The translations under genes and the position numbers were made by a program. The notes under the pieces are model-generated. The model searched no databases, was not told the DNA's origin, and saw only the letters and a program-made list of their open reading frames with translations. From Marinobacter nanhaiticus D15-8W (GTDB lineage: Bacteria > Pseudomonadota > Gammaproteobacteria > Pseudomonadales > Oleiphilaceae), in NCBI RefSeq assembly GCF_036511935.1, contig NZ_AP028878.1:434001-498000 (forward strand): DNA of 64,000 nt, read 5' to 3'. Shown one piece after another: positions 27,309-54,133 of this stretch; position 1 is the stretch's first letter, and each line of letters begins with the position of its first letter.

Positions 27309-27544
27309 TGTAGCCGACGCTTCAGAGGGTGTTGCAAAACTACTGTGCTCGACTATGCGGCGTTGGAAATTCGCTCAAAATGCTCATTTACTATCAGTAA
27401 ACTGCGCTTTTTCGCGAATTTCCGCCTTGCCTAGCCTTTGCTCGCTACGTTTTGCAACACCCTCTTCAGCTTCGGAGCGGACGTCAGTCCGCCGGAACAA
27501 CCCGGGAGCCTTGCGGCTCCTCCGAAGCTAAAGCGTCGGCTACA
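27309..27544. repeat. REP-like palindromic repeat pair (R2), interrupted by a MITE-like element
   Basis: The first arm begins TGTAGCCGACGCTTCAG (27309-27325), is interrupted at 27326-27463, and resumes with CTTCAGCTTCGGAGCGG. The second, inverted arm has GGGAGCC-TTGC-GGCTCC followed by TCCGAAGCTAAAGCGTCGGC and TACA. This is the same family as 11433-11533. Confidence 0.85.
27326..27463 (+). mobile_element. 138-bp MITE-like element, copy A
   Basis: Perfect 15-bp terminal inverted repeats AGGGTGTTGCAAAAC / GTTTTGCAACACCCT are flanked by a 6-bp direct duplication, CTTCAG (27320-27325 and 27464-27469). Removing the element and one duplication restores an intact REP-like unit. There is no coding capacity. 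A second copy in inverse orientation at 46303-46440 is the same length and differs at about eight positions by hand alignment. The transposase that mobilised it is not in the window. Confidence 0.9.
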
Positions 27545-27638
27545 CGCTCCGGTTAGCCTAAGTCTTCGGAGGTCGGGCTCATCCAAGGGCGTAAAACCGA
27601 TAGCGTAAGCCGACGGACATCCTGGCTGGCGGGTACCT

Positions 27639-28400
27639 TCAGACTGCATACCCCGGATTTTTACTATCCAGCAGCCGCAACAGCGCCGGCCAGGTCAGCT
27701 TCGCGGCCTTGCCCAGCGACTGGGATTGGTCTCGTGTCGTAGCAATGGCCTCGTCAGACGGTATCCAGGTCGGGCCGCAGGCCTGCGCCTTCACCTGGAT
27801 CTCACAGGCCTTCATCAGGAAGTAGAGATAGGTGAACGTCTCTGGCACGTCCTGCCCGGTGGTGAGGACCCCATGATTACGCAGGATCAACATCGACTTG
27901 TCGCCGATGTCCCGGATCAGCCGCTCCCGTTCTTCCAGGTTCAGCGCTACGCCTTCGTAGTCGTGATAGGCCACATGATCCAGACACAGCATGGCGGTCT
28001 GGCTCAAGGGCAGCAGTCCGTCCCTGTGGGCGGAGACCGCCACACCGTCGGAGGCGTGCAGGTGCATGACCGCGCCGGCATCCTCGCGCCCCATATGGAT
28101 GGCGCTATGGATGGTGAAGCCCGCCGGATTGACCCGCGGCAGGCCGCCGGCTTGTACCACATTGCCTTCCTGATCCACTTTCACCAGCGATGACGCGGTG
28201 ATTTCGTGAAACAACAAACCATACGGGTTGATCAGGAAATGGTGCTCCGGCCCCGGCACTCGGGCCGATAGGTGGGTGAACACCAAATCGTCCCAGCCAA
28301 ACAGGGCGACCAGTCGATAGGCTGCCGCCAGATCGCAGCGGGCCTGCCATTCCTGTTTACGCAATGCTTTATCCTGGTCTTGTTCTTGGTGGGATTGCAT
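27639..28400 (-). CDS. class II aldolase/adducin family protein
   Basis: Zinc-dependent class II aldolase-fold protein of 253 residues. Metal-ligand candidates are the His pair in VMHLHASD (near 112-114) and His in LRNHGVL (near 173). The segment FGWDDLVFTHLSARVPG near residue 34 is the standard substrate/phosphate region, but the usual active-site Glu of fuculose aldolase is not obvious. The family includes aldolases, epimerases and decarboxylases, so the reaction cannot be given. It lies alone between two repeat regions. The start at 28400 has AGGAGG upstream on the minus strand (28406-28411). Confidence 0.9.
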   Translation of the reverse strand: MQSHQEQDQDKALRKQEWQARCDLAAAYRLVALFGWDDLVFTHLSARVPGPEHHFLINPYGLLFHEITASSLVKVDQEGNVVQAGGLPRVNPAGFTIHSAIHMGREDAGAVMHLHASDGVAVSAHRDGLLPLSQTAMLCLDHVAYHDYEGVALNLEERERLIRDIGDKSMLILRNHGVLTTGQDVPETFTYLYFLMKACEIQVKAQACGPTWIPSDEAIATTRDQSQSLGKAAKLTWPALLRLLDSKNPGYAV

Positions 28401-28452
28401 GGGGCCTCCTAATGTCGATGAGGACGGTCGTAGTTATGTCATTCCCCGAGTA

Positions 28453-28552
28453 TGTAGCAGAAGCTTCAGCTTCTGAGCCACCGGAGGTGGCCGATAGCTC
28501 ATAGATAGTACCGGGGCACTCCGTGCCCTCCGGAGCTGAAGCGTCGGCTACA
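28453..28552. repeat. REP-like palindromic repeat pair (R3)
   Basis: TGTAGCAGAAGCTTCAGCTT plus CTGAG and a GCCACC-GGAGGTGGC hairpin face an inverted arm (GGGCACT-CCG-TGCCC, then TCCGGAGCTGAAGCGTCGGC and TACA). It lies between the aldolase promoter and the terminator of the dehydrogenase pair. Confidence 0.85.
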
Positions 28553-28578
28553 TTTTGCTCCAGAGCGCCTGTAAAACT

Positions 28579-28604
28579 AAAAAAGGGGCGGCAACGCCGC
28601 CCCC
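28579..28604 (-). terminator. intrinsic terminator of the acyl-CoA dehydrogenase pair
   Basis: GGGGCGGC-AAC-GCCGCCCC (28585-28603), followed on the minus strand by a six-T run (28579-28584). It lies about 85 bases beyond the stop at 28687. Confidence 0.85.
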
Positions 28605-28686
28605 TAAAATGGGTCTCAAAGGGGATTGGTATCGACGCAGGTCGACGCCAGAGACCCTGCTCCTCGCACAGAGAACGTGCCCGAAA

Positions 28687-29829
28687 TCAGGAAGCCTGCA
28701 GTAGCCCTGCGTAGGCTTCCAGATGATGATCGTCGTCACCGAGTTGATGGTTGATCATGATCAGTCGCTTGGCGTAGTGCGCCAGGCTGTATTCCCAGGT
28801 CATGCCGATGCCGCCGTGCAGTTGGATCGCCTGCTCCGAGATGTGCTGGCCAGCGCGGCCGATGATGTTCTTGGCCGCCGCTAATGTGCGTGTGCGCTCG
28901 TCGCTGGCTTCGTCGTTCGCCACGCTGGCGGCCAGGATAGAGGCGGAGCGCGCCTGCTCCAGCTCGGAACTCATGTCCACCATACGATGCTGAAGCACCT
29001 GGAACTTACCGATGGGCACGCCGAACTGTTTGCGGGTCTTCAGGTACTCCAGGGTCAGCTTGATGGACTCTTCCATGGCACCAACCGCTTCGGCACACAG
29101 GGCGGCCATCGCGCGGCCGGCCTGGTACTGGATCACGTCGCCCGCTTTGCCTTCGGTGCCGATCAGTGCATCAGCGCCGACCTTGACGTCCTTCAGGAAC
29201 ACATCGCAGCCCTTGGCACCGTCCATCGTCGGATAGGTGCGGCGGTCAACGCCAGCAGCTTCGGGATCGATGGCAAACAGGGACAGACCATCTGCGTCGC
29301 GACTGTCGCCACTGGTACGGGCAGAAACGATGATCAGGCCTGCTGCGTGGCCACCGATGAGAACGCCTTTGCGACCATTGAGGGTATAGCCATCGCCGGA
29401 TTTCTTGGCGCGGGTCTCAACATCGTTCAGGTTGTAGTGGCTCTGGGGCTCCTGCAGGCCGACGGCCACTTTCAGTTCGCCGGTGGCGATACGGCCCAGC
29501 CAGTCTTCTTTCTGGCTGTCGCTACCCGCCTGGCTGATAATGCCGCCGCCGAGGATGACGGTCTGCATGTACGGCTCGAGGCACAGGCCGCGGCCCAGTT
29601 CGGTCATGACCGACTGTACGTCCACGCCCGAGCCGCCAAAGCCGCCCAATTCTTCCGGGAAGGGCACGGCGCACAGGCCCAGTTCGCCCAGTTGCTTCCA
29701 GAAATCCTCGCTGAAACCCAGTTCGCTTTCGCTGTATTTCAGGCGCTTCTCGAATTCGTACTCACCGCGGACCAGGCGAGCCACGGTGTCCTGCAGCATT
29801 TGCTGCTCTTCATTCAGTCTGAAGTCCAT
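28687..29829 (-). CDS. acyl-CoA dehydrogenase, small-subunit type (PimD-like)
   Basis: Acyl-CoA dehydrogenase family protein of 380 residues. The N-terminal helical domain, middle domain (VAVGLQEPQSHYN near 135-147) and C-terminal domain with RKQFGVPIGKFQVLQHRMVDM are clear. At the site of the usual catalytic EG motif it reads INHQLGDDD, with no obvious general base. This suits the partner subunit of a heteromeric enzyme such as pimeloyl-CoA dehydrogenase (PimC/PimD) or the alpha2beta2 FadE enzymes of steroid degraders. It follows the other dehydrogenase gene by 12 bases, on the same transcript. The name is by resemblance only. Confidence 0.9.
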   Translation of the reverse strand: MDFRLNEEQQMLQDTVARLVRGEYEFEKRLKYSESELGFSEDFWKQLGELGLCAVPFPEELGGFGGSGVDVQSVMTELGRGLCLEPYMQTVILGGGIISQAGSDSQKEDWLGRIATGELKVAVGLQEPQSHYNLNDVETRAKKSGDGYTLNGRKGVLIGGHAAGLIIVSARTSGDSRDADGLSLFAIDPEAAGVDRRTYPTMDGAKGCDVFLKDVKVGADALIGTEGKAGDVIQYQAGRAMAALCAEAVGAMEESIKLTLEYLKTRKQFGVPIGKFQVLQHRMVDMSSELEQARSASILAASVANDEASDERTRTLAAAKNIIGRAGQHISEQAIQLHGGIGMTWEYSLAHYAKRLIMINHQLGDDDHHLEAYAGLLQAS

Positions 29830-29841
29830 GGGTGCCTCCTG

Positions 29842-31038
29842 TTACAGCCCGAGAATCATTTTGGTGACGATGTTCTTCTGGATCTCGTTGGATCCACCGA
29901 AGATCGACAGCTTGCGCATGTTGAAGTACTGCGCGGACAGCGGTGCGCCGTCCTGGTCGGACAGGAAGTCACCTTCGTAATCCAGGTTCAGTTCCTCTTC
30001 CACAAACGGCTGGGCGTAGGGGCCCAGGGCACGACGGGCGAGGTCCGTGATGGCCTGGCGGATCTCGGTACCGCGGACTTTCAGCATCGAACTCTCGGCA
30101 CCTGGCACGCCGCCACCTTCAACGGAGGCGATAATACGCAGGTTGCTGATGGCAGCGGCCATCAGGTCGATCTCGACCTGGGCAACGCGCTGGGCAAAGG
30201 ACGGGTCCTCGATCAACGGACGCCCGTTTTTCTTCTGGCGGCTGGCGATACCCTTGAGGTGGCTCAACGCCGCCTTGGATGCGCCAATGCCAGCCAGGCC
30301 GGTTCGTTCATACGTGAGCAGGTACTTGGCGTAGGTCCAGCCTTTATCTTCTTCGCCCACCAGGTTCTCGACCGGCACCTTGACGTTGTCGAAGAAAACT
30401 TCGTTGACCTCGTGTTCCCCGTCCAGGGTGATGATCGGACGCACGGTGACCCCCGGGGTCTCCATGTCGATCAACAGGAAGGAAATACCCTCCTGGGCCT
30501 TCACCTCGGTATTCGTGCGTACCAGACAGAAAATCATGTTGGCGTGCTGGCCCAGGGTGGTCCAGGTCTTCTGACCGTTGACCACGTAATGATCGCCCTC
30601 ACGCACGGCGCGGGTCTTGAGGGAGGCCAGGTCGGAACCGGCACCCGGCTCTGAATAGCCCTGACACCACCAGTCCTCGCCACTCAGGATGCGTGGCAGG
30701 TACTGCTGCTTCTGTTCTTCGCTACCGAACTTGATGATGACCGGCGCGACCATGTTGACGCCGAAGGGGATCGAGCGCGGTGCGCCATAACGGCAGGACT
30801 CTTCGTCCCAGATGTGCTTCTGGACTGCGGACCACTTCACACCGCCATACTCTTCCGGCCAGTGGGTGGCATACCAGCCCTGCTTGCTCAGGATCTGTTG
30901 CCAGCGTTCGTGGTCGGCCCGGGACATGCGGCGTCCGCGTTTGACCTTGGCTGCGATGTCCGCCGGCAGCTTCTGCTCAAGGAAGCTCCGGACCTCGTCA
31001 CGGAAGGCCAGCTCTTCCGCCGTGTAGTTCATATTCAT
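29842..31038 (-). CDS. acyl-CoA dehydrogenase, large-subunit type (PimC-like)
   Basis: Acyl-CoA dehydrogenase of 398 residues. The FAD-binding middle domain is clear (CQGYSEPGAGSDLASLKTRA near 124-143; GQKTWTTLGQHAN near 155-167), and the C-terminal end reads SIFGGSNEIQKNIVTKMIL. Gly replaces the Glu found before Gly in butyryl/medium-chain enzymes at this point, so the base must lie elsewhere, as in several FadE types. It heads a two-gene operon with the PimD-like gene. It is divergent from the DcaP-like porin, and the shared 374-bp region carries three IclR-type sites. A joint role in uptake and oxidation of a dicarboxylic or cyclic acid is inferred. Confidence 0.92.
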   Translation of the reverse strand: MNMNYTAEELAFRDEVRSFLEQKLPADIAAKVKRGRRMSRADHERWQQILSKQGWYATHWPEEYGGVKWSAVQKHIWDEESCRYGAPRSIPFGVNMVAPVIIKFGSEEQKQQYLPRILSGEDWWCQGYSEPGAGSDLASLKTRAVREGDHYVVNGQKTWTTLGQHANMIFCLVRTNTEVKAQEGISFLLIDMETPGVTVRPIITLDGEHEVNEVFFDNVKVPVENLVGEEDKGWTYAKYLLTYERTGLAGIGASKAALSHLKGIASRQKKNGRPLIEDPSFAQRVAQVEIDLMAAAISNLRIIASVEGGGVPGAESSMLKVRGTEIRQAITDLARRALGPYAQPFVEEELNLDYEGDFLSDQDGAPLSAQYFNMRKLSIFGGSNEIQKNIVTKMILGL

Positions 31039-31101
31039 CGATCAACCTCTCGGTTCTTTTTTGTGCTCTGTAAGCCGAATCTTGTGTTCTGTGAAAGCCT
31101 A

Positions 31102-31116
31102 TACCGCATAGCAGAA
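31102..31116. promoter_or_regulatory. IclR-type operator-like site (1 of 3) in dehydrogenase/porin intergenic region
   Basis: TACCGCATAGCAGAA; its reverse complement matches 13 of 15 positions of TTTCGCTATGCGGTA. It lies 64 bp from the dehydrogenase start. Confidence 0.5.
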
Positions 31117-31262
31117 TATGCGAAGCATGAATGATGAAACTTTCACTGTCAATTGCCCGACTTTCTCCATTTGACTTTTCTGTTACGAGAAACAGCAAAA
31201 TTTAGTTTTAAAAGGTTGTCGTCGAAAACACCTTTGTCTATATTCGGAAATACGGAAGCCGG

Positions 31263-31277
31263 TATTGCTAAGCGGAA
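31263..31277. promoter_or_regulatory. IclR-type operator-like site (2 of 3)
   Basis: TATTGCTAAGCGGAA matches 11 of 15 positions of the motif in the forward direction. It lies 136 bp before the porin start. Confidence 0.45.
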
Positions 31278-31293
31278 TCTTTAAAGGAGATTG

Positions 31294-31308
31294 TACCGCA
31301 TAGCGAAA
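31294..31308. promoter_or_regulatory. IclR-type operator-like site (3 of 3), reference copy
   Basis: TACCGCATAGCGAAA, reverse complement TTTCGCTATGCGGTA. It is a pseudo-palindrome of the kind bound by IclR-family regulators and lies about 105 bp before the porin ATG. Confidence 0.55.
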
Positions 31309-31412
31309 CTATAGGATCGAGAAGAACAATAACCGGCTGAAGGACCAGAAAAACAAAGACGCAACTACCTACAACAAAGACTCTCTACAACAAAGAAAAG
31401 ACGAGGTTTGAA

Positions 31413-32735
31413 ATGACAACAAGAAATAAGTCATTCAGAGCACATCCACTCACCCGTGCCGTGGCTCTTGCAGGATTTCCGCTGATTGCAGCATTGTCGA
31501 TGCCGGCCCAGGCCCAGGATTCAGAAGTTGACGAACTGCGCCAGCGTGTCGATCAATTGGAGCAGGCGCTCAGAGGCGCGGTGTCTACCGCACCCGAAGC
31601 CACCGCCGATAACCCTTATATCCTGCGCGAAGGGGACGGTCTGAAGATTGGTGACACCACCATTTCCTTTGGTGGCTTCATCAAGGCGGACATGATCTAT
31701 GGCTCGGGTGGTGACGGCACCATTAATACGTACAGCACCGGTCTGCCACGTAACTTTGCCTCTGCAGCAGCCTCGGACGAGGACTGGAAAGTGGGGTTCA
31801 GTGCGCGCGAATCCCGGTTCAGCTTCGGTACTGAAACGGAAGACGTTGGCGGCCACACCCTGCGTACCTACCTGGAAATGGACTTCAACACTGCGGACGA
31901 CGCAGCGGGTAACGAAGTCGTATCCAACAGCTATAACCCCCGTCTGCGCCAGGCCTATGGCGCTTGGAACGGTTGGGAATTCGGTCAGACCTATACCACC
32001 TTCACCGATCTGGCCGCACTGCCTGAGATCCTGAACCAGGGCAAGATGGCGGCGTTCATCTACACCACCCAGCCAATGATTCGCTATAACATGGCCGCCC
32101 CGGGTGGCAAGCTTATGGTCGCCCTGGAAAACCCGGAAGACGGTTTTGGCAGCACTTCATACGACGATCAGTCCTATCCGGACCTGACGGCTCGTTACCA
32201 GATTCGCGGCAATTACGGCTTCTACTCCATTGCCGGTGTTGTGCGTAATCTGGAGGACGATGCCTCTGATGACTCTAAAGTAACGGGCGCGGTGTCCTTG
32301 AGCGCACGTATCCCCACAATTGGGCGCGACGATTTGCGGCTGCAATATAGCTACGGCTCTCTGGGTCGATACATGGGGCTCTTTACTTACCCAGATGTAG
32401 ATTTGGTCGAACAGGGTCAGGGTGAGGTCGATCCTTTGAAAACGTATGGTGCGACTGTGGCCTATCGTCACTTCTGGTCGCCGACCTGGCGTTCGAGCCT
32501 GGTGGGTTCGCACACGGAGATCCTCGACGATCTGACCCTGCGCCAGTCAGCATCCCCGAATGGCACCCTCAGCTACTTCGATTCGTCGACTTCTGTCCAT
32601 GCCAACCTGTTGTGGTCGCCGAAGTCGAACCTGACTCTGGGTATTGAGTATGCCTACTGGGACTTTGGAGAAATTGCATCTGACAGCAGCGAACAGTATG
32701 AACAGGTCATGCTGTCAGCACTTATGCAGTTCTAA
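31413..32735 (+). CDS. DcaP-like trimeric outer-membrane porin
   Basis: Outer-membrane channel of 440 residues. A signal peptide (cleavage after MPAQAQ, near residue 35) is followed by a short N-terminal coiled coil (VDELRQRVDQLEQAL), then a beta-barrel beginning ISFGGFIKADMIYG and ending in a C-terminal Phe (MLSALMQF), the usual outer-membrane insertion signal. This layout is that of DcaP, a porin linked to dicarboxylic-acid use in Acinetobacter. The gene is divergent from the PimC/PimD-like dehydrogenases, supporting a role in taking up their substrate. The listed ATG follows a purine-rich leader (GACGAGG about 8 bases upstream). Confidence 0.9.
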   Translation: MTTRNKSFRAHPLTRAVALAGFPLIAALSMPAQAQDSEVDELRQRVDQLEQALRGAVSTAPEATADNPYILREGDGLKIGDTTISFGGFIKADMIYGSGGDGTINTYSTGLPRNFASAAASDEDWKVGFSARESRFSFGTETEDVGGHTLRTYLEMDFNTADDAAGNEVVSNSYNPRLRQAYGAWNGWEFGQTYTTFTDLAALPEILNQGKMAAFIYTTQPMIRYNMAAPGGKLMVALENPEDGFGSTSYDDQSYPDLTARYQIRGNYGFYSIAGVVRNLEDDASDDSKVTGAVSLSARIPTIGRDDLRLQYSYGSLGRYMGLFTYPDVDLVEQGQGEVDPLKTYGATVAYRHFWSPTWRSSLVGSHTEILDDLTLRQSASPNGTLSYFDSSTSVHANLLWSPKSNLTLGIEYAYWDFGEIASDSSEQYEQVMLSALMQF

Positions 32736-32749
32736 AAGAAGATGTATTG

Positions 32750-32770
32750 GGCCGGCTTAAGCCGGCCTTT
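32750..32770 (+). terminator. terminator candidate after the porin gene
   Basis: The perfect palindrome GGCCGGCTTAAGCCGGCC lies 15 bases after the stop and is followed by TTT. A second stem, CCCC-TCC-GGGG with TTTTT, is near 32811-32828. Confidence 0.65.
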
Positions 32771-32849
32771 CCTTCCGGTTACTCGGTTGTTTTGCCCGTT
32801 GCCCTGGATCCCCTCCGGGGCCTTTTTGCGTCAGGCGAACAATTTAGTT

Positions 32850-33965
32850 CTAGGGGCGCCGCGCAAACGCGACCGCCTTGACCAGTGCCGTGACCGTCCG
32901 GTCCGGCGCCAATCCCAGTTCATCATAGGACTTGCGCGTCACGCGGGCGCGCAGGGTCTGTTCACCGATTCTCAGGCGCAACTCCATAGCCGCGGGATTG
33001 TCCGGCTGCGGTGCCGTGTCCTCGATCACGGCCTTGAGCTGGTTGCGATAACTCGATAACGGCTGCGGTTCCAGCGCAAGCGCGACGTCCCGCACTGGGA
33101 TGCGCAGGCGCAAAGGTTCGTCGACAGGCATATCGACTTCGGGCACCGTCAGTAGCTGGCCATCGGCGAGGGCGAGCCGGGTCAGATGGTAGTCGGGGTC
33201 ATGGTCGTGCACCTGTGCCTCCAGAATGGATGCGGCGTTGAATCCACCCAGGTAAGGCGTCAGATCGAAGCGCATCAGCAGGTCGTCCAATTGGCCTGTT
33301 GCCACCACCCGACCCTTTTCCAGCAGGACCAGGTTGTCGGCGATCGCGGCCAGTTCTTTAGGGTCGTGGCTGACGTAGATGATGGGGATGTCGATTTCGT
33401 GGGTCAGGTGGAGGATGAAATCCAGCAGCTCCTGCTTGCGTGGCCCATCCAGTCCGGTGAGGGGTTCGTCCAGCAGGAGCATGCGCGGCTCGCTCAGCAG
33501 GGCGCGGCCGATGGCTACTCTGCGGGCTTCGCCACCGGAGAGGGTGGCGGGGAAGCGGTCGAGCAAGTGGTCAATGCCCAGCAGTTGCACGATCTTCTCG
33601 AAGTGTGCGCCGTCCTTTTTCGAGATGCCGTAGGCCAGGTTGCCGCGTACCCGGTAGTGAGGAAACAGCCGGGGTTCCTGAAAAACGATTCCAAGCTGGC
33701 GTCGGTGAACCGCCACATTGATATTGCGACGGCTATCGACCAGGATCTCGTCACCGAGGCGGATCCGGCCCTGCCGCGGCGTATCGAGGCCAGCAATTAG
33801 ACGCAGCAGGCTGGTCTTGCCACTGCCGGAGGCGCCGAACAGTGCAGTAACCCCCCGTCCGGGTAGGGCGAGGTCGGCTTCTACCGAGAACGTCCCCTGC
33901 TGATGGTGCACCTGGATATGCAGGTCATTGCCGGCGAGTTTCGTTCTGTTGGATCGGTCAGTCAT
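32850..33965 (-). CDS. modC: molybdate ABC transporter ATP-binding protein
   Basis: ATPase of the molybdate importer, 371 residues. Walker A is GASGSGKTS (near 44-52), the signature LSGGEARRVAIGRALL near 143-158, Walker B MLLLDEPLTGLD near 163-174, and the switch His is in YVSHDPKEL. A C-terminal Mop/TOBE domain (about 300-370) is typical of ModC and binds oxyanion. Its start overlaps the end of modB by eight bases. The modA-modB-modC order and single strand show one operon, transcribed leftward. It supplies molybdenum for molybdoenzymes, possibly nitrate reductase or xanthine dehydrogenase elsewhere. Confidence 0.95.
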   Translation of the reverse strand: MTDRSNRTKLAGNDLHIQVHHQQGTFSVEADLALPGRGVTALFGASGSGKTSLLRLIAGLDTPRQGRIRLGDEILVDSRRNINVAVHRRQLGIVFQEPRLFPHYRVRGNLAYGISKKDGAHFEKIVQLLGIDHLLDRFPATLSGGEARRVAIGRALLSEPRMLLLDEPLTGLDGPRKQELLDFILHLTHEIDIPIIYVSHDPKELAAIADNLVLLEKGRVVATGQLDDLLMRFDLTPYLGGFNAASILEAQVHDHDPDYHLTRLALADGQLLTVPEVDMPVDEPLRLRIPVRDVALALEPQPLSSYRNQLKAVIEDTAPQPDNPAAMELRLRIGEQTLRARVTRKSYDELGLAPDRTVTALVKAVAFARRP

Positions 33966-34653
33966 CGCGACCTCGCAGACGTCGCCGCGCCCGGCGGGCG
34001 AGCCATTCGGAAATGATCAGGGAAAGCATGGCGATCACGATCGCAATCGCGCAGAGTCGGGCCGCGGCTGCTTCCGCGCCAGGCGTCTGGATCAGCGTGT
34101 AGAGGGCCAGGGGCAGGGTGCGGGTTTCCCCCGGAATATTGGAAGCAAAGGTGATGGTGGCGCCAAATTCCGACAAGGCCCGGGCAAAGGCCAGCACGGT
34201 GCCAGTGATCAGGCCGGGCAACGTCAGGGGAAGGGTAATGGTGTAGAACACTCGCCAGCGACTGGCGCCCAGGGTGCGGGCAGCAGCTTCCAGGCCAGTA
34301 TCTACAGCTTCCAGCGAAAGGCGAACGGAGCGCACCAGCAGTGGGAAGGCCATCACGCCGCCGGCAACGGCAGCCCCCTGCCAGGTGAACGGTAGTTGAA
34401 TATCGAACACCCGATCCAGCCACTGTCCAAGCACGCCCTGGCGTCCAAGGCCGACCAGCAGCAGGTAGCCGACGACCACCGGCGGAAGTACCAGCGGCAG
34501 GTGAAGAACCCCGTCCACGATGGACTTGCCACGAAAATCCCGCCGCGCCATCAGCCAGGCCATGGCGATGCCCGGTACCAATATCCAGGCCACCGCGCTG
34601 CCGGCCACCCGCATACTGATGGCGATGGCTTCCCATTCGGTTGCGGTCAGCAC
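33958..34653 (-). CDS. modB: molybdate ABC transporter permease
   Basis: Inner-membrane permease of 231 residues with about five to six hydrophobic helices. The EAA motif of binding-protein-dependent permeases is visible (LEAAARTLGASRWRVFYTITLPLTLPGL, near 119-146). GTG at 34653 is used as start, nine bases after modA ends. It overlaps modC by eight bases. Length and sequence are standard for ModB. Confidence 0.95.
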   Translation of the reverse strand: MLTATEWEAIAISMRVAGSAVAWILVPGIAMAWLMARRDFRGKSIVDGVLHLPLVLPPVVVGYLLLVGLGRQGVLGQWLDRVFDIQLPFTWQGAAVAGGVMAFPLLVRSVRLSLEAVDTGLEAAARTLGASRWRVFYTITLPLTLPGLITGTVLAFARALSEFGATITFASNIPGETRTLPLALYTLIQTPGAEAAAARLCAIAIVIAMLSLIISEWLARRARRRLRGRDD

Positions 34654-34662
34654 GCGACTTCC

Positions 34663-35484: not shown

Positions 35485-35490
35485 GCGATA

Positions 35491-35518
35491 CCCGTTATGT
35501 ATAAATGGAAATAACGGG
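35491..35518. promoter_or_regulatory. candidate ModE operator upstream of modA
   Basis: CCCGTTAT and ATAACGGG are separated by 12 bases, with CGTTATGTA at one side; the arrangement resembles the E. coli ModE box (CGnTATATA-N6-8-TATATAnCG). It sits between modE and the modA start, so it would block modABC transcription when molybdate-loaded regulator is bound. Confidence 0.65.
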
Positions 35519-35557
35519 TTCACTATAGTCTGTTGGAGGGCGTTGTCCAAGGGGCGG

Positions 35558-35935: not shown

Positions 35936-36072
35936 GCCGGTCGTCTGCCACAGGAGTTCGGAAGTGAAAGACCGGTTCTATCACGGATGTCTGGAAAGAA
36001 ACAGACTGGAGACAAAGCCGCCCCGTCACAGCCGTGAACGAGGCGGATGTCAGGCGATAAAGCCAGAAAGAA

Positions 36073-37432: not shown

Positions 37433-37507
37433 AGTTTTATATATGAACTAGATTAATCGGGGGATATAACAAATGCAAGCCGTCCCGACGCCCCGTCACG
37501 GTCTCTC

Positions 37508-38851: not shown

Positions 38852-39326
38852 CCGGGTTCAGGTGGATGGTCCAGGTGTAAGTAAGACTTCGAGGGTGAGC
38901 CGAAGTGCCACGCTCCGCCTACTCTGTGGCGGAACTTTTAAGTCAATTTCTTCGCTAAATACTCTGTAATTGGCTAACATGTTCTGCATAGCAAAATTTC
39001 GTATCAGTTAATTCACCAAACCTTCCGTCGCCCTCGATTCGTAGCGGGATAGTAATGAAACAAAAAGAAAGAGTGTTTCAGATTTGGCATGCAATTTGAT
39101 TGCTGGTAGGTGGTACTCGTATCTTACTCTGATTAGAATAGAGCGAAATTTCATCATCGGCGTTTTATCGCTCAGAGTCAGGCTGCGATAGGCAGAGTTG
39201 AACTCGTTAGGCGAATTACCTGAAATGCCAAAGCGTGTTGGTCGCTTGTCTCGTGTTCCAGTCAATGCTGGAAAAGGACCAGGCCATTTCGTGAAGGTTG
39301 AGGGCTGTGGGGAGCACTAGGCAATT
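38852..39326. other. AT-rich intergenic region upstream of iclR-type gene
   Basis: This 475-bp stretch is clearly more AT-rich than its neighbours and contains no convincing gene. It holds one good IclR-type site (38982-38996) and a weaker TTCTTCGCTAAATA (38949-38962), suggesting autoregulation. Confidence 0.6.
38982..38996. promoter_or_regulatory. IclR-type operator-like site upstream of the IclR gene
   Basis: TTCTGCATAGCAAAA; its reverse complement TTTTGCTATGCAGAA matches 12 of 15 bases of the motif. It lies about 330 bp before the regulator's ATG. Confidence 0.5.
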
Positions 39327-40151
39327 ATGACGGCAAAACAGAAAATCAAAACGGATCTGGCCCTGGCAACGGGCGAGGGCCGATCGAAAACGGGTGAAAA
39401 GGATCGCAAGTTCGTCGAGGCGCTGTCCCGCGGGCTTGATGTGTTGCGTGCCTTCAGTCAGGGATCCGTGATCCTGGGTAATCAGGACATCGCCCGGCTG
39501 ACAGGTCTGCCCAAGCCGACCGTTTCCCGCATGACCTACACCCTGACCAAGCTGGGTTACCTGAGCTATAACCCGCTGCTGGAGAAATACCAGCTCAGCT
39601 CTGGCGTTCTCGCCCTGGGTTACGCCTACGTCTCCAACCTGAAAGTGCGCCAGCTGGCCAAACCCTACATGGACGAGTTTGCCCGTCGCACCAACATGTC
39701 TGTTGGCCTGACCTGTCACGATCGCCTGCACATGATCTACGTGGAAAACCGCATGCCTCCGGAAGCCACGCTGTTGCGCATGGAGATTGGTCTGCGTCTG
39801 CCCATGGCGACCACCTCTGCGGGTCGTGCCTATTGCGCGGCGGTGAGCGAAAGCCAGCGCAAGATCCTGATGGACGGTATGGCCAAGAAATACGGTGATC
39901 AGTGGCCGGAGAAGCGAGAGGGCCTCGAACGCGCCATGGAAGAGTACAAGGCCAACGGCTTCTGTCTCTCCCTGGGCGAGTGGGACCGCAACATCAATTC
40001 CGCTGGGGTTCCGGTTCACCTGGAAGATGGCACCACCATGGTGCTGACCTGTGCGGCGCCATCCTACCTCATCTCCGGCGAGAAGCTGCGCGATTCCATT
40101 GCCCACCAGTTGGCAATGCTGGCGAGTGATATCGAGGCGCTTGGGGTCTGA
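39327..40151 (+). CDS. IclR-family transcriptional regulator
   Basis: DNA-binding regulator of 274 residues. The N-terminal winged helix-turn-helix spans about 28-90 (LSRGLDVLRAF...IARLTGLPKPTVSRMTYTLTKLGYL), followed by the IclR effector domain (about 105-270) with YAYVSNLKVRQLAKPYMDEFARRTNMSV and a GRAYCAA motif. PcaR/PcaU-type members of this family respond to acids such as 3-oxoadipate. It lies between the membrane protein and the bifunctional beta-oxidation gene. It is the best candidate for binding the 15-bp motif found upstream of several loci here, including its own promoter. That link is inferred from position and motif type. Confidence 0.93.
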   Translation: MTAKQKIKTDLALATGEGRSKTGEKDRKFVEALSRGLDVLRAFSQGSVILGNQDIARLTGLPKPTVSRMTYTLTKLGYLSYNPLLEKYQLSSGVLALGYAYVSNLKVRQLAKPYMDEFARRTNMSVGLTCHDRLHMIYVENRMPPEATLLRMEIGLRLPMATTSAGRAYCAAVSESQRKILMDGMAKKYGDQWPEKREGLERAMEEYKANGFCLSLGEWDRNINSAGVPVHLEDGTTMVLTCAAPSYLISGEKLRDSIAHQLAMLASDIEALGV

Positions 40152-40180
40152 TTTCACGAGCCGGTCGCAGTGAGAGTAAG

Positions 40181-40208
40181 AACCGCGGGTCACGCCCGCG
40201 GTTTTTTT
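40181..40208 (+). terminator. intrinsic terminator after the IclR gene
   Basis: AACCGCGGG (40181-40189) pairs with CCCGCGGTT (40195-40203), followed by a seven-T run. Confidence 0.9.
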
Positions 40209-40242
40209 GTGCCTGCCTTTTCCTAAGACTTCACTGCCCGCG

Positions 40243-40420
40243 TAGCGTGCTGGTAAGGCGAAGCCGGACCGCACGGTGTTCGCCTTTTGGTTGGCGAACC
40301 TCGTGCCGGAAGCGGCGGGCCACCCTTGCCTACGCTGTCCTGCATGGCCGTCCCTGGCCAGCCATGACGACCGGGACATCCCTGTCCCTTCTTCGGCAAG
40401 GGTAGCCCGCCGCTTCTTCT
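40243..40420. repeat. large composite palindromic repeat
   Basis: Outer 22-bp arms (40309-40330 and 40395-40416) are complementary except for one base. Nested inside are CATGGC/GCCATG (40343/40361) and GGGACA-TCCC-TGTCCC (40373-40388). To the left is GTTCGCC-N8-GGCGAAC (40278-40299) and a module TAGCGTGCTGGTAAGGCGAA (from 40243) also found in diverged form at 63404-63437. There is no coding potential. The region to the next gene (40421-40741) has no other gene. Confidence 0.8.
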
Positions 40421-40741
40421 AATCTCGAGTTGGTTCAATAACTAAATGATAGCTGGGCATCGCTTACTTCCGGGTAGGAGCTGCTAACGGCTTTCCTCGA
40501 TCCTGACTTAGTTCCACGAATGATCGGTCGATGCGGTTCGCAGGCTCGCCCGTTCCTACTTCGACTGGTTTCTTTCCTCCCTGTTTGTATCGACTAAGCT
40601 GTTTGATTACCCGCCGTATTGATTCGTCTAACGATGCGCTGTCTCAATTTACTGTTGAAAGATCGATTGAAAATGGTTTAAATCGTCTTCAAGTTTCGCT
40701 TATTAAAACTGCATTCCATAGAAATACAAAAGGAGAGAGCA

Positions 40742-42835
40742 ATGTCAGAGGTCGTCACCTATCAACGCGAAGGCGCCATCGGCGTCATTACCGTGAACTA
40801 TCCGCCGGTCAACGCTCTCAGCCATGCCGTTCGCTCCGGCTTGCTCGACGCCCTCAAGCAGGGGCAGGCCGATGCTGAGGCCAAGGCGCTCCTACTGGTT
40901 TGTGAAGGCCGGACCTTCATCGCCGGCGCCGATATCCGTGAGTTCGGCAAGCCAATGCAGGAGCCGGGTCTGCCTACCGTTGTGGAAGCCTACGAGAACA
41001 GTGATAAGCCGATTATTGCCGCCATCCATGGCACGGCATTGGGCGGCGGGCTGGAAATGGCCCTTGGCTGTCATTACCGCGTTGCACTGGAAAGCGCCAA
41101 GGTGGGTCTGCCTGAAGTGAAGCTCGGGCTGCTGCCGGGCGCGGGTGGTACCCAGCGCCTGCCGCGTCTCGCCGGCGCCCAGAAATCCCTGGAGATGATC
41201 ACCACTGGTGACTTCATTTCTGCCAGTGATGCACTGCAGGCCGGTATTGTCGATGCTGTGGAAGCCAGTTCCGATGCGAAGGCGGCAGGCGAACAGTTTG
41301 CCCTGAAAGTCATCGACGAAGGTAAGCCTGCTCGCCGTGTCCGCGAGCTGACTGACAGGATTGAAGCCGACAAAGGCAGTGACGTTTTCGAACAGTTCCG
41401 TACCGGCCTGCAGAAGAAGGCCCGTGGGCTGTTCTCGCCGTTCAAGTGCGTGGATGCGGTCGAAGCGGCTTTCCAACTGCCGTTCGAAGAGGGCATGAAG
41501 CGCGAGCGCGAGCTGTTTATGGAATGTATGGAATCGCCCCAGCGCGCTGGCCTGGTCCACGCTTTCTTCGCCGAGCGTGAAGTGTCCAAGGTGCCGGGAC
41601 TGCCCAAGGATACGCCGGTTCGCGACATCAAGTCCGTGGGTATCATCGGCGCCGGCACCATGGGCGGCGGTATCGCCATGAACTTCGCCAACGTCGGTAT
41701 CCCCGTGCGCCTGCTGGAAGTGAAGCAGGAAGCGCTGGACAAGGGTTTGGCCATCATTCGCCGCAACTATGAGAACACCGCCAAGAAAGGTCGGATAACC
41801 CAGGCCCAGGTAGAGGAGCGCATGGCGCTGATCCAGCCGACGCTGGCCTATGAGGATTTCGGTGATGTGGACCTGGTGATCGAGGCCGTGTTCGAAAACA
41901 TGGGCATCAAGAAAGAGATCTTCGGCACCCTGGATAAGGTCTGTAAACAAGGCGCCATCCTGGCTTCGAATACCTCGACACTCGATATCGACGAGATTGC
42001 CTCGGCCACCAACCGTCCGGAAGACGTGGTGGGCATGCATTTCTTTAGTCCCGCTAACGTGATGAAGCTGCTTGAAAACGTGCGCGGCACCAAGACCGCT
42101 GACGACGTGAAGGCGACGGTGATGGACATCGCCAAGCGCATCAAGAAAGTCGGTGTACTGGTGGGCAACTGCTACGGCTTCGTCGGCAACCGGATGCTGC
42201 ACCAGCGTGGCGCAGAGGCGATCAAACTGGTCAATGAGGGTGCGACGCCGCAGCAGGTGGACAAGGTGCTAACCGACCTGGGCTTCCCCATGGGTCAGTT
42301 CGCCATGTCCGATCTGGCCGGCATCGATGTTGGTTACCGTATCCGCGAAGAACGCCGCAATGCCGGCGAGAATATCCCGCCCAGTTGGATGGACAAACTG
42401 GCGGAGCAGGGTCGTCTCGGCCAGAAGACCCAGGCCGGTACCTACCTCTATGAGGAAGGCAGCCGCAAGCCGATCCCCGATCCGAAGGTGGATGCGCTGA
42501 TCGAAGAGTTCCGCAAGGAGCAGGGCATCGAGCCGCGCGAGATCACCGACCAGGAAATCCTCGAACGCTGCATGTACGTGATGATCAACGAGGGTGCGAA
42601 GATCCTGGAAGAGGGCATCGCCGATCGGGCGCTGGATGTAGATATCGTCTGGATCTATGGCTACGGCTTCCCGGCCTACCGTGGTGGCCCGATGTTCTGG
42701 GCGGATCAGGTGGGCGTGAAGGAGATCTACGAGACCGTCAAGCGTTTCCACGACACCCTGGGCGGTGACCAGTGGAAGCCGGCCCCGTTGCTTGAGCGTC
42801 TGGCGAAGGAAGGCAAGACCTTCGGCAGCCTTTGA
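40742..42835 (+). CDS. bifunctional enoyl-CoA hydratase / 3-hydroxyacyl-CoA dehydrogenase
   Basis: Multifunctional beta-oxidation enzyme of 697 residues, similar in layout to FadJ/FadB and peroxisomal MFE-1. The N-terminal crotonase domain (about 1-190) has FIAGADIREFG (near 60) and GTALGGGLEMALGCHYRVA (near 97-115, with catalytic Glu). The Rossmann domain begins VGIIGAGTMGGGIAMNFA near 301, and the dehydrogenase C-terminal domains follow (GMHFFSPANVMKLLE; GNCYGFVGNRML; a final repeat with GYGFPAYRGGPMFWAD). Compared with FadB it is slightly shorter and lacks the FadB-type linker. AAGGAGAG precedes the ATG. Upstream AGTTTCGCT (40692) is only a partial match to the IclR-type motif. It pairs functionally with the thiolase 90 bp downstream. 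Confidence 0.95.
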   Translation: MSEVVTYQREGAIGVITVNYPPVNALSHAVRSGLLDALKQGQADAEAKALLLVCEGRTFIAGADIREFGKPMQEPGLPTVVEAYENSDKPIIAAIHGTALGGGLEMALGCHYRVALESAKVGLPEVKLGLLPGAGGTQRLPRLAGAQKSLEMITTGDFISASDALQAGIVDAVEASSDAKAAGEQFALKVIDEGKPARRVRELTDRIEADKGSDVFEQFRTGLQKKARGLFSPFKCVDAVEAAFQLPFEEGMKRERELFMECMESPQRAGLVHAFFAEREVSKVPGLPKDTPVRDIKSVGIIGAGTMGGGIAMNFANVGIPVRLLEVKQEALDKGLAIIRRNYENTAKKGRITQAQVEERMALIQPTLAYEDFGDVDLVIEAVFENMGIKKEIFGTLDKVCKQGAILASNTSTLDIDEIASATNRPEDVVGMHFFSPANVMKLLENVRGTKTADDVKATVMDIAKRIKKVGVLVGNCYGFVGNRMLHQRGAEAIKLVNEGATPQQVDKVLTDLGFPMGQFAMSDLAGIDVGYRIREERRNAGENIPPSWMDKLAEQGRLGQKTQAGTYLYEEGSRKPIPDPKVDALIEEFRKEQGIEPREITDQEILERCMYVMINEGAKILEEGIADRALDVDIVWIYGYGFPAYRGGPMFWADQVGVKEIYETVKRFHDTLGGDQWKPAPLLERLAKEGKTFGSL

Positions 42836-42857
42836 TCCGAATCCGATCGTGATTTGC

Positions 42858-42888
42858 AAACCTGCGGTGCGAGCCGCGGGTTTGTTTC
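42858..42888 (+). terminator. hairpin between the bifunctional enzyme and thiolase genes
   Basis: AAACCTGCGG (42858-42867) pairs with CCGCGGGTTT (42874-42883) with one T-G pair, followed by GTTTCCC. The weak T tract suggests partial termination or attenuation within an operon. Confidence 0.5.
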
Positions 42889-42922
42889 CCTATAACCACA
42901 ATAGCTTTCCGAGGACTCTCTC

Positions 42923-44107
42923 ATGTCTGACGCCGTAATCGTCTCCACCGCCCGTACCGGGCTGGGCAAATCCTATCGCGGTGCCCTGAACAACGCCCAC
43001 AGTGTCGACCTGGCTGGCCATGTGATCCAGCATGCGGTCCAACGTGCGGGTATCGACCCCGCCGTCGTCGAGGACGTGATCCTGGGCGCCACGTTCCACG
43101 AAGGCGCGCAGGGCAAGAACATGGCTCGCCTGGCCGCCGTGCGTGCCGGCCTGCCGGTAACGACCGCCGGCCTGTCCATCAACCGTTTCTGCAGCTCCGG
43201 TCTGCAGTCCATCGCCCTGGCGTCCCAGCGCATCGTTTCAGAGAAAGTGCCCGCGATGGTCGCTGGCGGTGTGGAGTCCATCAGCTTGGTGCAGAACGAC
43301 AAAATCAACCAGTTCCGCGCCACCAATGAATGGCTGATGAAGAACAAGCCAGAGCTGTACCTGTCCATGATCGAAACCGCGGACATTGTGGCCAAGCGCT
43401 ACAACATTAGCCGTGAGGCCCAGGACGAGTACGCCCTGGTCAGCCAGCAGCGGACTGCCGCGGCGCAGGAAAAGGGCTACTTCGACGACGAGATCGTGCC
43501 CTACGATGCCACCATGTTGGTGAAGGACAAGGAAACCGGCGAGGTGAGCGAAAAGCAAGTCACCCTGACCAAGGATGAGTGCAACCGTCCGAATACCACC
43601 CTGGAAGGTCTGGCCGGCCTGAATCCGGTACGTGGTGACGACCAGTTCGTTACGGCCGGTAATGCGAGCCAGTTGTCCGACGGTGCATCGGTTTGTGTGG
43701 TGATGGACAGCACGTACGCCGAAAAGAACAACATCGAGCCCATGGGGATCTTCCGTGGTTTTGCCGTTGCTGGTTGCGAGCCGGATGAAATGGGTATTGG
43801 CCCGGTCTATGCCATCCCGCGTCTGCTGGAACGCACCGGGCTAAAGATGGACGATATCGACCTGTGGGAGTTGAACGAAGCCTTTGCTTCCCAGGTGGTC
43901 TATTGCCGTGATCGCCTGGGGATTCCCATGGACAAGCTGAACGTCAACGGCGGCTCGATCTCCATTGGCCACCCCTACGGTGTTACGGGCTCCCGTTTGA
44001 CCGGCCATGCGCTGATCGAAGGCAAACGCCGCGGCGCCAAGTATGTCGTGGTGACCATGTGTATTGGTGGTGGTCAGGGTGCGGCTGGATTGTTTGAGGT
44101 CGTTTAA
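42923..44107 (+). CDS. acetyl-CoA C-acyltransferase (thiolase)
   Basis: Thiolase of 394 residues. Cys90 lies in [11 protein letters not shown], the His is in [19 protein letters not shown] (near 349) and the second catalytic Cys in [18 protein letters not shown] (near 380). The sequence is of the FadA/acetyl-CoA acyltransferase group rather than the PcaF type. It follows the bifunctional hydratase/dehydrogenase by 87 bp and probably completes the same beta-oxidation cycle. CCGAGGA lies upstream of the ATG. A REP-like repeat follows the gene. Confidence 0.94.
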
Positions 44108-44182
44108 CACCGTTGAGGCCTGGGCCGTTGTTGTGCGTGGCGAGGTGGTTGCCACGGGTTCGCAGCGGCAGGGGAGGCGAGG

Positions 44183-44284
44183 GGCGCCCATGGCGCCTCA
44201 GAAGCTGAAGCTTCTGCTACATGCTCGAGTTGGTTGCAAAATGTAGCCGACGCTTCAGCTTCGGAGCAGCCCGTAAGGGCTGCC
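44183..44284. repeat. REP-like palindromic repeat pair (R4)
   Basis: A GGCGCC-CAT-GGCGCC hairpin is followed by TCAGAAGCTGAAGCTTCTGC and TACA, then an inverted unit TGTAGCCGACGCTTCAGCTT and CGGAG with a GCAGCCC-GTAA-GGGCTGC hairpin. This copy is uninterrupted and shows the pre-insertion sequence of the MITE site. Confidence 0.88.
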
Positions 44285-44369
44285 ACTCGCTCTTCAGGCC
44301 GCCTCAGCCGACAAACCCGAACTGCAAAAACTGTACAAGCAGCCAAACCGATAACAATAGGGCTTTACC

Positions 44370-46172
44370 ATGCAGCAGCGCATCATTAATCCCCAGGATC
44401 TGGCCTTCCAACTCTTCGAACTGCACCGCACCGAAGATGTTTTGAACTATGACCGCTACGCCGATCACAGCCTGGAAACCCTACAGGCGGCACTCGATCT
44501 GGCATTGAAAGTCGCGGCGGAAGAGTTTGCGCCTCACGCCCGACTGGTGGATGAGGAAGAGCCTACCTTCGAGAGCGGCCGCGTCACCATGCGTCCTGAG
44601 GTCAAGAAGGCATTGGATGTGCTGCGCGAAACCGGTCTGATGGCCGCTGGCCAGAGCTACGAGCGTGGCGGTATGCAACTCCCCGCAGCCGTAGCGCAGA
44701 TGTGCGTGGGCATGCTCAAGGGCGCCAACGTCGGCACCCAGGGGTATGCGGGTCTGACCATCGCTGCCGCCAACCTGATCCTGGCCCATGGCTCTGAAGA
44801 ACAGAAACAGCGTTACGCCGATCACATGCTGGCGGGCCGCTTCTTCGGCACCATGTGCCTGACCGAGCCGCACGCCGGTTCCTCCCTGGGCGATCTGCGC
44901 ACCCGTGCCGAGCCCCAGGACGACGGTAGCTACCGGCTCAAGGGCAACAAGATCTATATCTCCGCCGGCGACCACGAGCTGAGCGAGAACATCATTCACA
45001 TGGTGCTTGCCCGCTTGCCGGATGCGCCTCCTGGCGTGAAGGGGATTTCCCTGTTCCTGGTGCCCAAGTCCCTGGTGAACGAGGACGGCAGTCTCGGTGA
45101 ACGGAATGATGTCGCCCTGGCCGGCCTGATCCACAAGATGGGTTATCGCGGTACCACGTCCACCATGCTCAATTTCGGCGAGAAGGACGGCGCGGTGGGC
45201 TATCTGGTGGGAGAGCCGCACAAGGGCCTGGCAGCCATGTTCCACATGATGAACGAGGCGCGGATCGGCGTGGGCCTGGGCGCCGTTATGTTGGGCTATA
45301 CCGGCTACCTGCATGCACTGGAGTACGCTCGCGAGCGCAGGCAGGGTCGCCCCATGGGCGAGAAGGATCCGGCAACGCCCCAGGTGCCGCTAATCCGTCA
45401 TGCCGATATCCGCCGGATGCTGCTGACCCAGAAGGCCTATGTCGAAGGTGGTCTGGCCCTGTGCCTGGAAGGCGCGCGGCTGGTGGACGAGAAAAAGTTC
45501 GCCGCGTCCGACACCGAGCGCGCGGAAGCCGCCGGCGTGTTGGACCTGCTGACCCCGCTGATCAAGTCCTGGCCCTCCCAGTTCTGCCTTGAAGCCAACA
45601 GCCTGGCGATCCAGGTTCACGGCGGCTACGGCTATACCCGCGAGTACCCGGTGGAACAGTTCTACCGGGACAATCGCCTGAACCCGATCCATGAGGGCAC
45701 CCACGGCATCCAGGGGCTCGACCTGCTGGGCCGCAAGGTCATCATGGCCAACGGCGAATACTACAATGCGCTGATGGGCAGGATACGCCGTACCATCAAA
45801 GAAGCGCGGGAAGTGGCCGAACTCAAGGACAGCGCCGAACGCCTGCAGGTCGCCATCGAACAGATGGCCCAGGCGACCGACGCCATCAATAAGGTACGCG
45901 CCTCCGGAGAAACCGAGCGGGCGTTAGCCAATGCCTCCCTTTATCTGGAAGCGTTCGGCCATACCGTGGTTGGGTGGCTCTGGCTGCGCCAGGCTCAGGT
46001 CGCCCTGCAGGGGATCGCCAACAGCGGTCCGCAGACCGAGGAATTCTACCGCGGCAAGCTGAAAGCCTGTGATTACTTCGCCCGTTACGAATTGCCACGG
46101 GTGGCGTCGCTGGCAGGACTGTTGGCGGAAGTCGACGGGACGGCCCTGAATATTGCCGATGCCGAATTTTAG
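44370..46172 (+). CDS. acyl-CoA dehydrogenase, 600-residue type (DmdC-like)
   Basis: Large acyl-CoA dehydrogenase of 600 residues. The standard ACAD core spans about 40-465 (CLTEPHAGSSLGDLRTRA near 163; QVHGGYGYTREYPVEQFYRDNRLNPIHEGTHGIQ near 412-445, with the catalytic Glu in HEGT). A C-terminal helical extension of about 130 residues follows. This size and extension match the DmdC / acyl-CoA dehydrogenase C-terminal-domain group, which includes 3-methylmercaptopropionyl-CoA dehydrogenase and general long-chain enzymes. It is probably co-regulated with the upstream beta-oxidation pair, though a repeat lies between. A substrate role in DMSP metabolism cannot be claimed without dmdB/dmdD neighbours. 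The stop codon abuts the repeat at 46172. Confidence 0.92.
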   Translation: MQQRIINPQDLAFQLFELHRTEDVLNYDRYADHSLETLQAALDLALKVAAEEFAPHARLVDEEEPTFESGRVTMRPEVKKALDVLRETGLMAAGQSYERGGMQLPAAVAQMCVGMLKGANVGTQGYAGLTIAAANLILAHGSEEQKQRYADHMLAGRFFGTMCLTEPHAGSSLGDLRTRAEPQDDGSYRLKGNKIYISAGDHELSENIIHMVLARLPDAPPGVKGISLFLVPKSLVNEDGSLGERNDVALAGLIHKMGYRGTTSTMLNFGEKDGAVGYLVGEPHKGLAAMFHMMNEARIGVGLGAVMLGYTGYLHALEYARERRQGRPMGEKDPATPQVPLIRHADIRRMLLTQKAYVEGGLALCLEGARLVDEKKFAASDTERAEAAGVLDLLTPLIKSWPSQFCLEANSLAIQVHGGYGYTREYPVEQFYRDNRLNPIHEGTHGIQGLDLLGRKVIMANGEYYNALMGRIRRTIKEAREVAELKDSAERLQVAIEQMAQATDAINKVRASGETERALANASLYLEAFGHTVVGWLWLRQAQVALQGIANSGPQTEEFYRGKLKACDYFARYELPRVASLAGLLAEVDGTALNIADAEF

Positions 46173-46522
46173 ATTCATTGCGGATACGCGTGAACGGGAG
46201 AGCGCCGCCTGACAAATATAACTACGGGCACCTGCGGCGCCTCAGAAGCTAAAGCGTCTGCTACATGCTCGAGTTTGATGCAAAGTGTAGCCGATGCTTC
46301 AGAGGGTGTTGCAAAACGTAGCGAGCGAAGGCCAGGCAAGGCGGAAATTCGCGAAAAAGCGCAGTTTACTGGTCGTAAATGAGCATTTTGAGGGAATTTC
46401 CAACGCCGCATGGCCGAGCGCAGTAGTTTTGCAACACCCTCTTCAGCTTCGGAGCAGCCTGTAGGGCTGCCTATTTCCGGGACGCTTTCGCGGTACGGCT
46501 TCCCGTTAAAATACGATGAATC
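46172..46522. repeat. composite repeat region (R5) with REP-like units and outer inverted ends
   Basis: The outer ends GATTCAT...GAACGGGA (46172-46199) and TCCCGTT...GATGAATC (46501-46522) are inverted relative to each other. Inside is a REP-like pair (46227-46471): GCGCCTCAGAAGCTAAAGCG onward, then TGTAGCCGATGCTTCAG, interrupted by the MITE-like element at 46303-46440, then CTTCGGAG and a GCAGCC-TGTA-GGGCTGC hairpin. Similar outer ends occur at 63234-63375. Confidence 0.8.
46303..46440 (-). mobile_element. 138-bp MITE-like element, copy B
   Basis: Same 15-bp terminal inverted repeats and same length as 27326-27463, but in the opposite orientation. It is flanked by CTTCAG at 46297-46302 and 46441-46446. 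It is inserted after the same base of the REP-like unit as copy A. About eight differences in 138 positions between copies, by eye. Non-autonomous: no reading frame of note. Confidence 0.9.
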
Positions 46523-54070: not shown

Positions 54071-54133
54071 GTCAGAGTCTCCTCTGCTATTGAGTCTATG
54101 GAGATACTGTATGTCCCGACCCTTCTTTTATAC

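Follow-up and report, generated by a model that had tools for sequence, protein, structure and literature searches.

Two Inserts at the Same Point of a Palindromic Repeat

The stretch of DNA considered here, referred to throughout as the window, comprises 64,000 nucleotides of the Marinobacter nanhaiticus D15-8W genome (contig NZ_AP028878.1, positions 434,001 to 498,000). Within it, two copies of a short element have each split a repetitive extragenic palindromic (REP) sequence at the same point, and a third REP of the same sequence is intact. With its initial GTAG and the sequence CCGACG-CTTCAG-CTTCGG, the repeat conforms to the GTAG class of REPs described in passages of PMC3733652. The inserts are miniature inverted-repeat transposable elements (MITEs) of the kind designated type A below, and the features of the locus, in window coordinates, are as follows.

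27310..27324, + strand: 5' half of the REP split by copy 1, GTAGCCGACGC-TTCA
27321..27324, + strand: left 4-bp target duplication of copy 1, TTCA
27325..27464, + strand: MITE copy 1, type A, 140 bp, GAGGGTGTTGCAAAAC ends, a long inverted repeat (folding z -8)
27465..27468, + strand: right 4-bp target duplication of copy 1, TTCA
27465..27477, + strand: 3' half of the REP split by copy 1, TTCA-GCTTCGGAG
44243..44266, + strand: intact REP of the same sequence, an unoccupied target
46287..46301, + strand: 5' half of the REP split by copy 2, GTAGCCGATGC-TTCA
46298..46301, + strand: left 4-bp target duplication of copy 2, TTCA
46302..46441, - strand: MITE copy 2, type A, 140 bp, inverted relative to the REP
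46442..46445, + strand: right 4-bp target duplication of copy 2, TTCA
46442..46454, + strand: 3' half of the REP split by copy 2

The initial annotation of this locus, which described two inverse 138-bp copies with about eight differences at 27326-27463 (+) and 46303-46440 (inverse), holds up well: exactly 8 of the 138 positions differ, and the copies lie in opposite orientations relative to the repeat. The 15-bp inverted ends that it gave are identical in both copies and are better set at 16 bp, as moving the element boundary one base outward on each side yields a 140-bp element with the terminal inverted repeat (TIR) GAGGGTGTTGCAAAAC in both. The 6-bp CTTCAG duplication that it proposed has given way to the 4-bp TTCA. 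Inside REPs the two readings are indistinguishable, and the shorter is preferred because off-REP copies elsewhere agree at 4 bp and fail at 6 bp, as in a Xenorhabdus copy (TTTA/TTTA vs GTTTAG/CTTTAC) and in the copy at locus L098 (GTGT/GTGT vs TGTGTG/CGTGTG). As the annotation anticipated, removal of the inserts rebuilds the repeat: with one duplication taken away, the joined flanks read TGTAGCCGACGCTTCAGCTTCGGAGC and TGTAGCCGATGCTTCAGCTTCGGAGC, the repeat found intact at 44243-44266, from which the rejoined TGTAGCCGATGCTTCAGCTTCGGAGC of copy 2 differs at one position.

Within the window the end motif occurs four times at up to two mismatches, all of them exact, vs a mean of 0.14 in shuffled sequences. 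No listed open reading frame of at least 150 aa overlaps either copy; thus these short elements have the inverted ends and the lack of coding capacity that characterize MITEs. A preference for the central hexamer alone would be insufficient to explain their location, because only 12 of the 70 CTTYAG hexamers in the window (both strands) score as REP-like, three of these being insert flanks (the fourth flank falls just under the cut). A very small chance probability obtained for this location assumes 300 REP sites and serves as an illustration only.

Recurrence across the Genome

The 14-mer AGGGTGTTGCAAAA from the element end has 67 matches in the genome at up to one mismatch, vs one for the reversed control. 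Pairing of ends by script in 213 kb of genome pieces gave 38 pairs, of which 35 were retained; of the other three, two overlap with better pairs, and one at 3979970 has ends with one and three mismatches, without a known interior and without a REP. REP halves flank 34 of the 35 on both sides, split at the same point and in both orientations, so that the site-specific insertion into REP palindromes suggested from the window is upheld by the paired elements of the genome; the share in REPs is mixed in other species. The flanking halves are complementary in 31 of the 34, including two assigned by eye on account of a 1-base shift or deletion (30761 and 2646280), and the remaining three have the same half on both sides, read as the outcome of recombination between copies. 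Of 30 scorable elements (one of the 31 has a flank deletion), 27 have the same duplication on the two sides, TTCA in 16 and TTTA in 11; with a chance agreement of ~0.52 for independent flanks, the corresponding P is ~1e-5. These dispersed copies with their target duplications are MITEs also by that measure, and most of them occupy one position in the REP. Single ends with at most one mismatch number five, three with REP-like flanks (1303420, 3653868, and 5074406).

Two types of element share this site. With the outer G and C included, type A measures about 140-157 bp; type B is about 200-225 or 290 bp long and has CTCTCTCCCC repeats. The interiors of the two types are unrelated, and only the ends are common to both. 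Orientation relative to the REP is divided 10 and 5 in type A and 12 and 3 in type B. Elements with two different interiors have thus inserted, in either orientation, at the same site on the dyad of the REP, with TTCA or TTTA on both sides. At up to three mismatches, 262 REP matches are left in the genome. The two ends of the chromosome record, C1, seem to be bridged by a degenerate type A element (C1:5336574 to the end plus C1:1-100; L018, L069), and another degenerate end is found at C1:3154163.

Relatives in Marinobacter and Other Bacteria

A scan of named genomes for the end pattern returned 37 stretches, 17 of them from Marinobacter (including M. halodurans, M. mangrovi, and Marinobacter sp. 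BGYM27). Matches in Desulfosporosinus were rejected as chance as they lie inside a reading frame, which we take to be nagA. The 66 stretches obtained from viral contigs have no partner end closer than three mismatches within 5 kb and were likewise judged chance. For counting, the loci of relatives were picked by exact end matches, with paired elements counted and single-end loci left out. On this basis, REP halves occur on both sides of 6 of 10 elements in M. halodurans (G005), 7 of 10 in G003, 3 of 4 in M. mangrovi (G002), and neither of the two elements in G001 nor the single one in G004.

Beyond the genus, a genome of another genus in the same family (G006) has one element within a divergent REP, with arms CCGAATA/TGTTCGG (one mispair) and TTTA duplicated, and a metagenome-assembled genome (MAG) of the Pseudomonadales (L164) has a 64-bp element within GCGGC-TTCA-GCCGC. 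The insertion site in Pontibacterium (L162) is non-palindromic and its duplication imperfect. Short elements (84-97 bp) bounded on each side by AGGGTGTTGCAAAA, without an evident duplication, are also present in three Lachnospiraceae MAGs (L139, L153, and L157; Firmicutes). The core of the type A interior (window 27366-27440; L232-L250), CTCAAAATGCTCATTTAC...GTAAACTGCGCTTTTTCG, is matched in 65 of 244 genomes of the order and carries different terminal repeats elsewhere, as if one interior had been joined to many ends.

A Candidate Family for the Mobilizing Transposase

The initial annotation had called for a full-length insertion sequence (IS) with these ends and for its transposase family. 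None was found in the M. nanhaiticus genome; in other bacteria, end identity points to IS1182. The exact 16-mer end is present in 9 of 390 genomes of the order, and in Endozoicomonas sp. 4G it belongs to a 1708-bp element that encodes a 540-aa transposase, with ends GAGGGTGTTGCAAAAC (all 16 bp exact) and GAGGGTGTCGCGAAAC (14/16). Over 493 aa this transposase exceeds the NCBIfam cut-off for IS1182 (NF033551; 296 vs 270 bits). An autonomous element with the same TIR and an IS1182 transposase is thus present in Endozoicomonas, a genus other than Marinobacter. Two copies in Endozoicomonas sp. 4G lie in the palindrome TTCCCACGC-TCT-GCGTGGGAA, and across three genomes labeled Endozoicomonas a palindrome of this kind stands beside the end at 9 of 14 end loci (judged by eye). 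Several loci with this genus label (L258, L265, L271, L277, L279, and L283) have same-end elements beside CGTTCCCACGCTCTGCGTGGGAA-type palindromes, sometimes adjacent or nested.

The nearest relative among plasmids, an element of Xenorhabdus sp. TH1, has a transposase 44% identical to that of Endozoicomonas and ends GAGGGTGTCGTAAAA, and it has duplicated TTTA within the palindrome CCCCGTTG-TTTA-CGGCGGGG. A Marinobacter MAG protein (P0045) is 49% identical to the Endozoicomonas transposase. In a tree of 22 IS1182 transposases, those of Endozoicomonas sp. 4G, Xenorhabdus, P0045, Endozoicomonas montiporae, Halomonas, and Massilia form one clade (100/100), outside of which the resident Marinobacter IS1182 falls. 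No Endozoicomonas-type transposase was confirmed in viral contigs. An IS1182 match at 1e-10 is present in 21 of 163 genomes of the family, and at the 30 loci examined the stretch scanned upstream of the gene contains no end closer than 13/16.

Taken together, these comparisons make it probable (roughly 0.7) that the MITEs have been moved in trans by a transposase of this IS1182 clade that targets the apex of palindromes. Movement would be by cut-and-paste, catalyzed by a DDE transposase, with two strand joinings staggered by four bases about the dyad; the autonomous members of the clade in Endozoicomonas and Xenorhabdus, whose ends are identical or almost identical to those of the MITEs and which likewise sit at a palindrome apex, would represent the type of enzyme involved. 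As no autonomous copy was found in the genome, the mobilizer may have been lost, or its ends may have diverged too far for the searches.

How such an enzyme might select its target is a separate matter, for which DNA folding offers one answer. In the minimum-energy folds of two REP types and of the Xenorhabdus target, a 4-nt loop consists of exactly TTCA or TTTA; the duplicated tetranucleotide thus coincides with the loop predicted for the REP hairpin. The score for pairing of the arms at the duplication is 6/10 in Xenorhabdus and at two of three Marinobacter sites tried; a second REP form with a TTCA loop folds modestly (z -1.6), and the Endozoicomonas repeat, folded as a whole, is an evident hairpin (z -5.6). 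Tentatively, the clade and its MITEs may read extruded hairpins (cruciforms) by their shape and TTYA tetraloop, insert at the loop, and duplicate exactly the loop.

The spread of REPs is attributed to a tyrosine transposase. If the interpretation is correct, these repeats, multiplied by their own transposase, would serve throughout the genome as insertion sites that spare genes, and two genomic parasites would be linked, the one providing targets for the other, to which it is unrelated. The many natural insertions of elements with different interiors into a single base step of the palindrome would also make the choice between recognition of sequence and of folded DNA directly testable.

A number of observations weigh against this interpretation. 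In the genome itself, a degenerate paired copy at 1583858 lies outside a REP, and two of the five unpaired ends (3361530 and 5336574) are without REP flanks. Elements that are not flanked by REP halves on both sides make up 4 of 10 in G005, 3 of 10 in G003, 1 of 4 in G002 (a REP on one side only), and all 3 in G001 and G004, and most off-REP copies in the genus are without a good hairpin and often have mismatched duplications. An autonomous element with these ends was found neither in the M. nanhaiticus genome (100% complete, two contigs) nor in six genomes of the genus. The 18 IS1182 matches in genus genomes have ends of the GAGGCTGTAGAAAAAC type at all 13 loci where ends were read; the resident ends match the 16-bp MITE end at only 13/16, and no resident autonomous element that shares the MITE ends was found. 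Further complicating the picture, the duplication in Endozoicomonas is 5 bp (the TCT loop plus two stem bases) rather than a centered 4, and, the ends aside, the interiors of the MITEs resemble the elements of Endozoicomonas and Xenorhabdus no more than expected by chance. With respect to folding, the GTAGCCGACG form of the REP is equal to shuffles (z -0.2), the centroid fold of the Xenorhabdus target has an 8-nt loop, and the arm-pairing score is 3/10 at the third Marinobacter site and at the duplication in the Endozoicomonas copies, where the off-dyad position of the insertion accounts for the low score.

The resident IS1182 elements (TIR GAGGCTGTAGAAAAAC; L251-L255) show a flanking pattern of their own, with GCGTT before all five copies in M. 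nanhaiticus and GTTA after four of the five (GTTG after the fifth), and the same pattern accompanies GAGGCTGTAGAAAAAC elements in two other species (L322 and L323). These junctions are attC-like, and an attC-specific group of IS1182 elements is possible.

Other candidates for an autonomous element were three end pairs spaced 1.5-1.6 kb apart, which proved to be type B MITEs containing an IS481-family element. This element was rejected as the mobilizer because it sits at different places within the type B copies, and it has its own TGTGCAA ends. Its 405-aa transposase has IS481 as the best NCBIfam match, just under the cut-off (210 of 224 bits). There are 11 full copies, 8 within type B MITEs with recognizable ends and a ninth in B-like sequence, as if the element favored type B MITEs.

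C1: 649937, 2646280, 2813269, 2924282, 3062859, 3207188, 3507177, 4383487: IS481-family element in type B MITEs (L058, L059, L063, and others)

Alternative Explanations

The first alternative concerns the target. The REP could be read as a double-stranded dyad sequence by a dimeric transposase, in the manner of a repressor site, and not as a hairpin. This is a credible explanation, a little short of even odds: the Marinobacter REP targets are closely related, CTNNAG-like centers recur at several off-REP sites, and one REP form, as noted, folds no better than shuffles. It fits less readily with related insertions at the same center of palindromes of other sequence, in the Xenorhabdus plasmid, the Pseudomonadales MAG, and the divergent REP of a second genus, or with the use of the Endozoicomonas palindromes.

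The second accepts the MITEs and their REP target and assigns the mobilization to a transposase of the IS5 family. Passages of PMC3189936 describe IS5 elements such as ISPsy19 with ends of the form GAGGGTGTAGACAAAAT, whose similarity to the MITE ends also counts against IS1182, as well as the MITE MITEPsy1, assigned tentatively to IS5, with 4-nt duplications of CTAG or YTAA. ISNm1106, of the IS5 family, is listed as REP-associated in PMC1525189. Elements with the type A core also occur with several other ends, for example beside CTAG or TTAA in Pseudomonas plasmids. The exact 16-mer nevertheless sits on an IS1182 element, and GAGGGTGTTGCAAAAC ends were not encountered on any IS5 element; a DDE_Tnp_1 search of the M. 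nanhaiticus genome found only the five IS1182 copies, other IS5 profiles not having been searched. IS5 duplications are of the YTAR type, unlike TTYA. An IS5 mobilizer is therefore considered unlikely, and mobilization by the IS1182 clade is preferred.

It is highly improbable that a few insertions were instead copied many times together with the surrounding REP by a REP-associated tyrosine transposase (RAYT), since, even though RAYT-type genes exist in the genome (six Y1_Tnp matches, the one at C1:2789618 inside a REP cluster), many separate insertions are required by the unrelated interiors of types A and B, the two orientations, the two REP subtypes, the differing outer flanks, and the TTCA and TTTA duplications that match within an element and differ between elements, and no identical outer sequences of REP doublets forming hairpins (REPINs) accompany the inserts, as they would if insert and REP were copied as a unit.

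Other Features of the Window

The remainder of the window includes a match to the small RNA PhrS and, clustered within 1.7 kb, three matches to the xanthine riboswitch.

53938-54105, - strand: PhrS small RNA match (RF01673)
60448-60518, - strand: xanthine riboswitch match (Rfam RF03054)
60831-60900, + strand: xanthine riboswitch match (Rfam RF03054)
62062-62121, + strand: xanthine riboswitch match (Rfam RF03054)

Comparison with Known Systems

ISs that target REPs and IS1182 members that target palindromes are both already known; their combination as seen here was not found in print. Searches of open-licence literature turned up no title or abstract opening with an account of these ends, of MITEs in Marinobacter REPs, or of IS1182 in REPs.

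IS1182 is a family of DDE transposases, some members of which target inverted repeats, as set out in passages of PMC5678879. The model given there for IS1272 includes an alternative pathway in which joining occurs at loops and duplicates the loop only, and this alternative resembles the present sites. IS1272 itself, as portrayed in the same passages, replaces the stem-loop without duplication, whereas the present elements keep both halves of a palindrome split at its apex and duplicate the central four bases, TTYA; they differ further in being MITEs in REPs.

Repeated insertion into REP palindromes is a feature shared with the ISs covered by PMC1525189 (IS1397, ISKpn1, IS621, ISPsy8, ISPa11, ISPpu9/10, and ISRm22), where REP targeting reaches across the families IS3, IS110, IS4, IS256, and IS5. 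Neither IS1182 nor MITE occurs as a word in the main text of that source, and IS1182 would be added to the families known to target REPs. MITEPsy1, for its part, is like the present MITEs in being small and noncoding, with inverted ends (18-nt in that case) and a 4-nt duplication, and MITEPsy1-like sequences are described in Pseudomonas species and in Marinobacter aquaeolei; it is unlike them in its other ends and its CTAG or YTAA targets, and a location in REPs is not reported in those passages (PMC3189936).

A further counterpart is the IS1182 element of Endozoicomonas sp. 4G. It differs from the MITEs in being autonomous, in its length of 1708 bp, in its 5-bp duplication, and in the palindrome that it occupies, and it has in common with them an identical 16-bp end and insertion at the apex of a palindrome.

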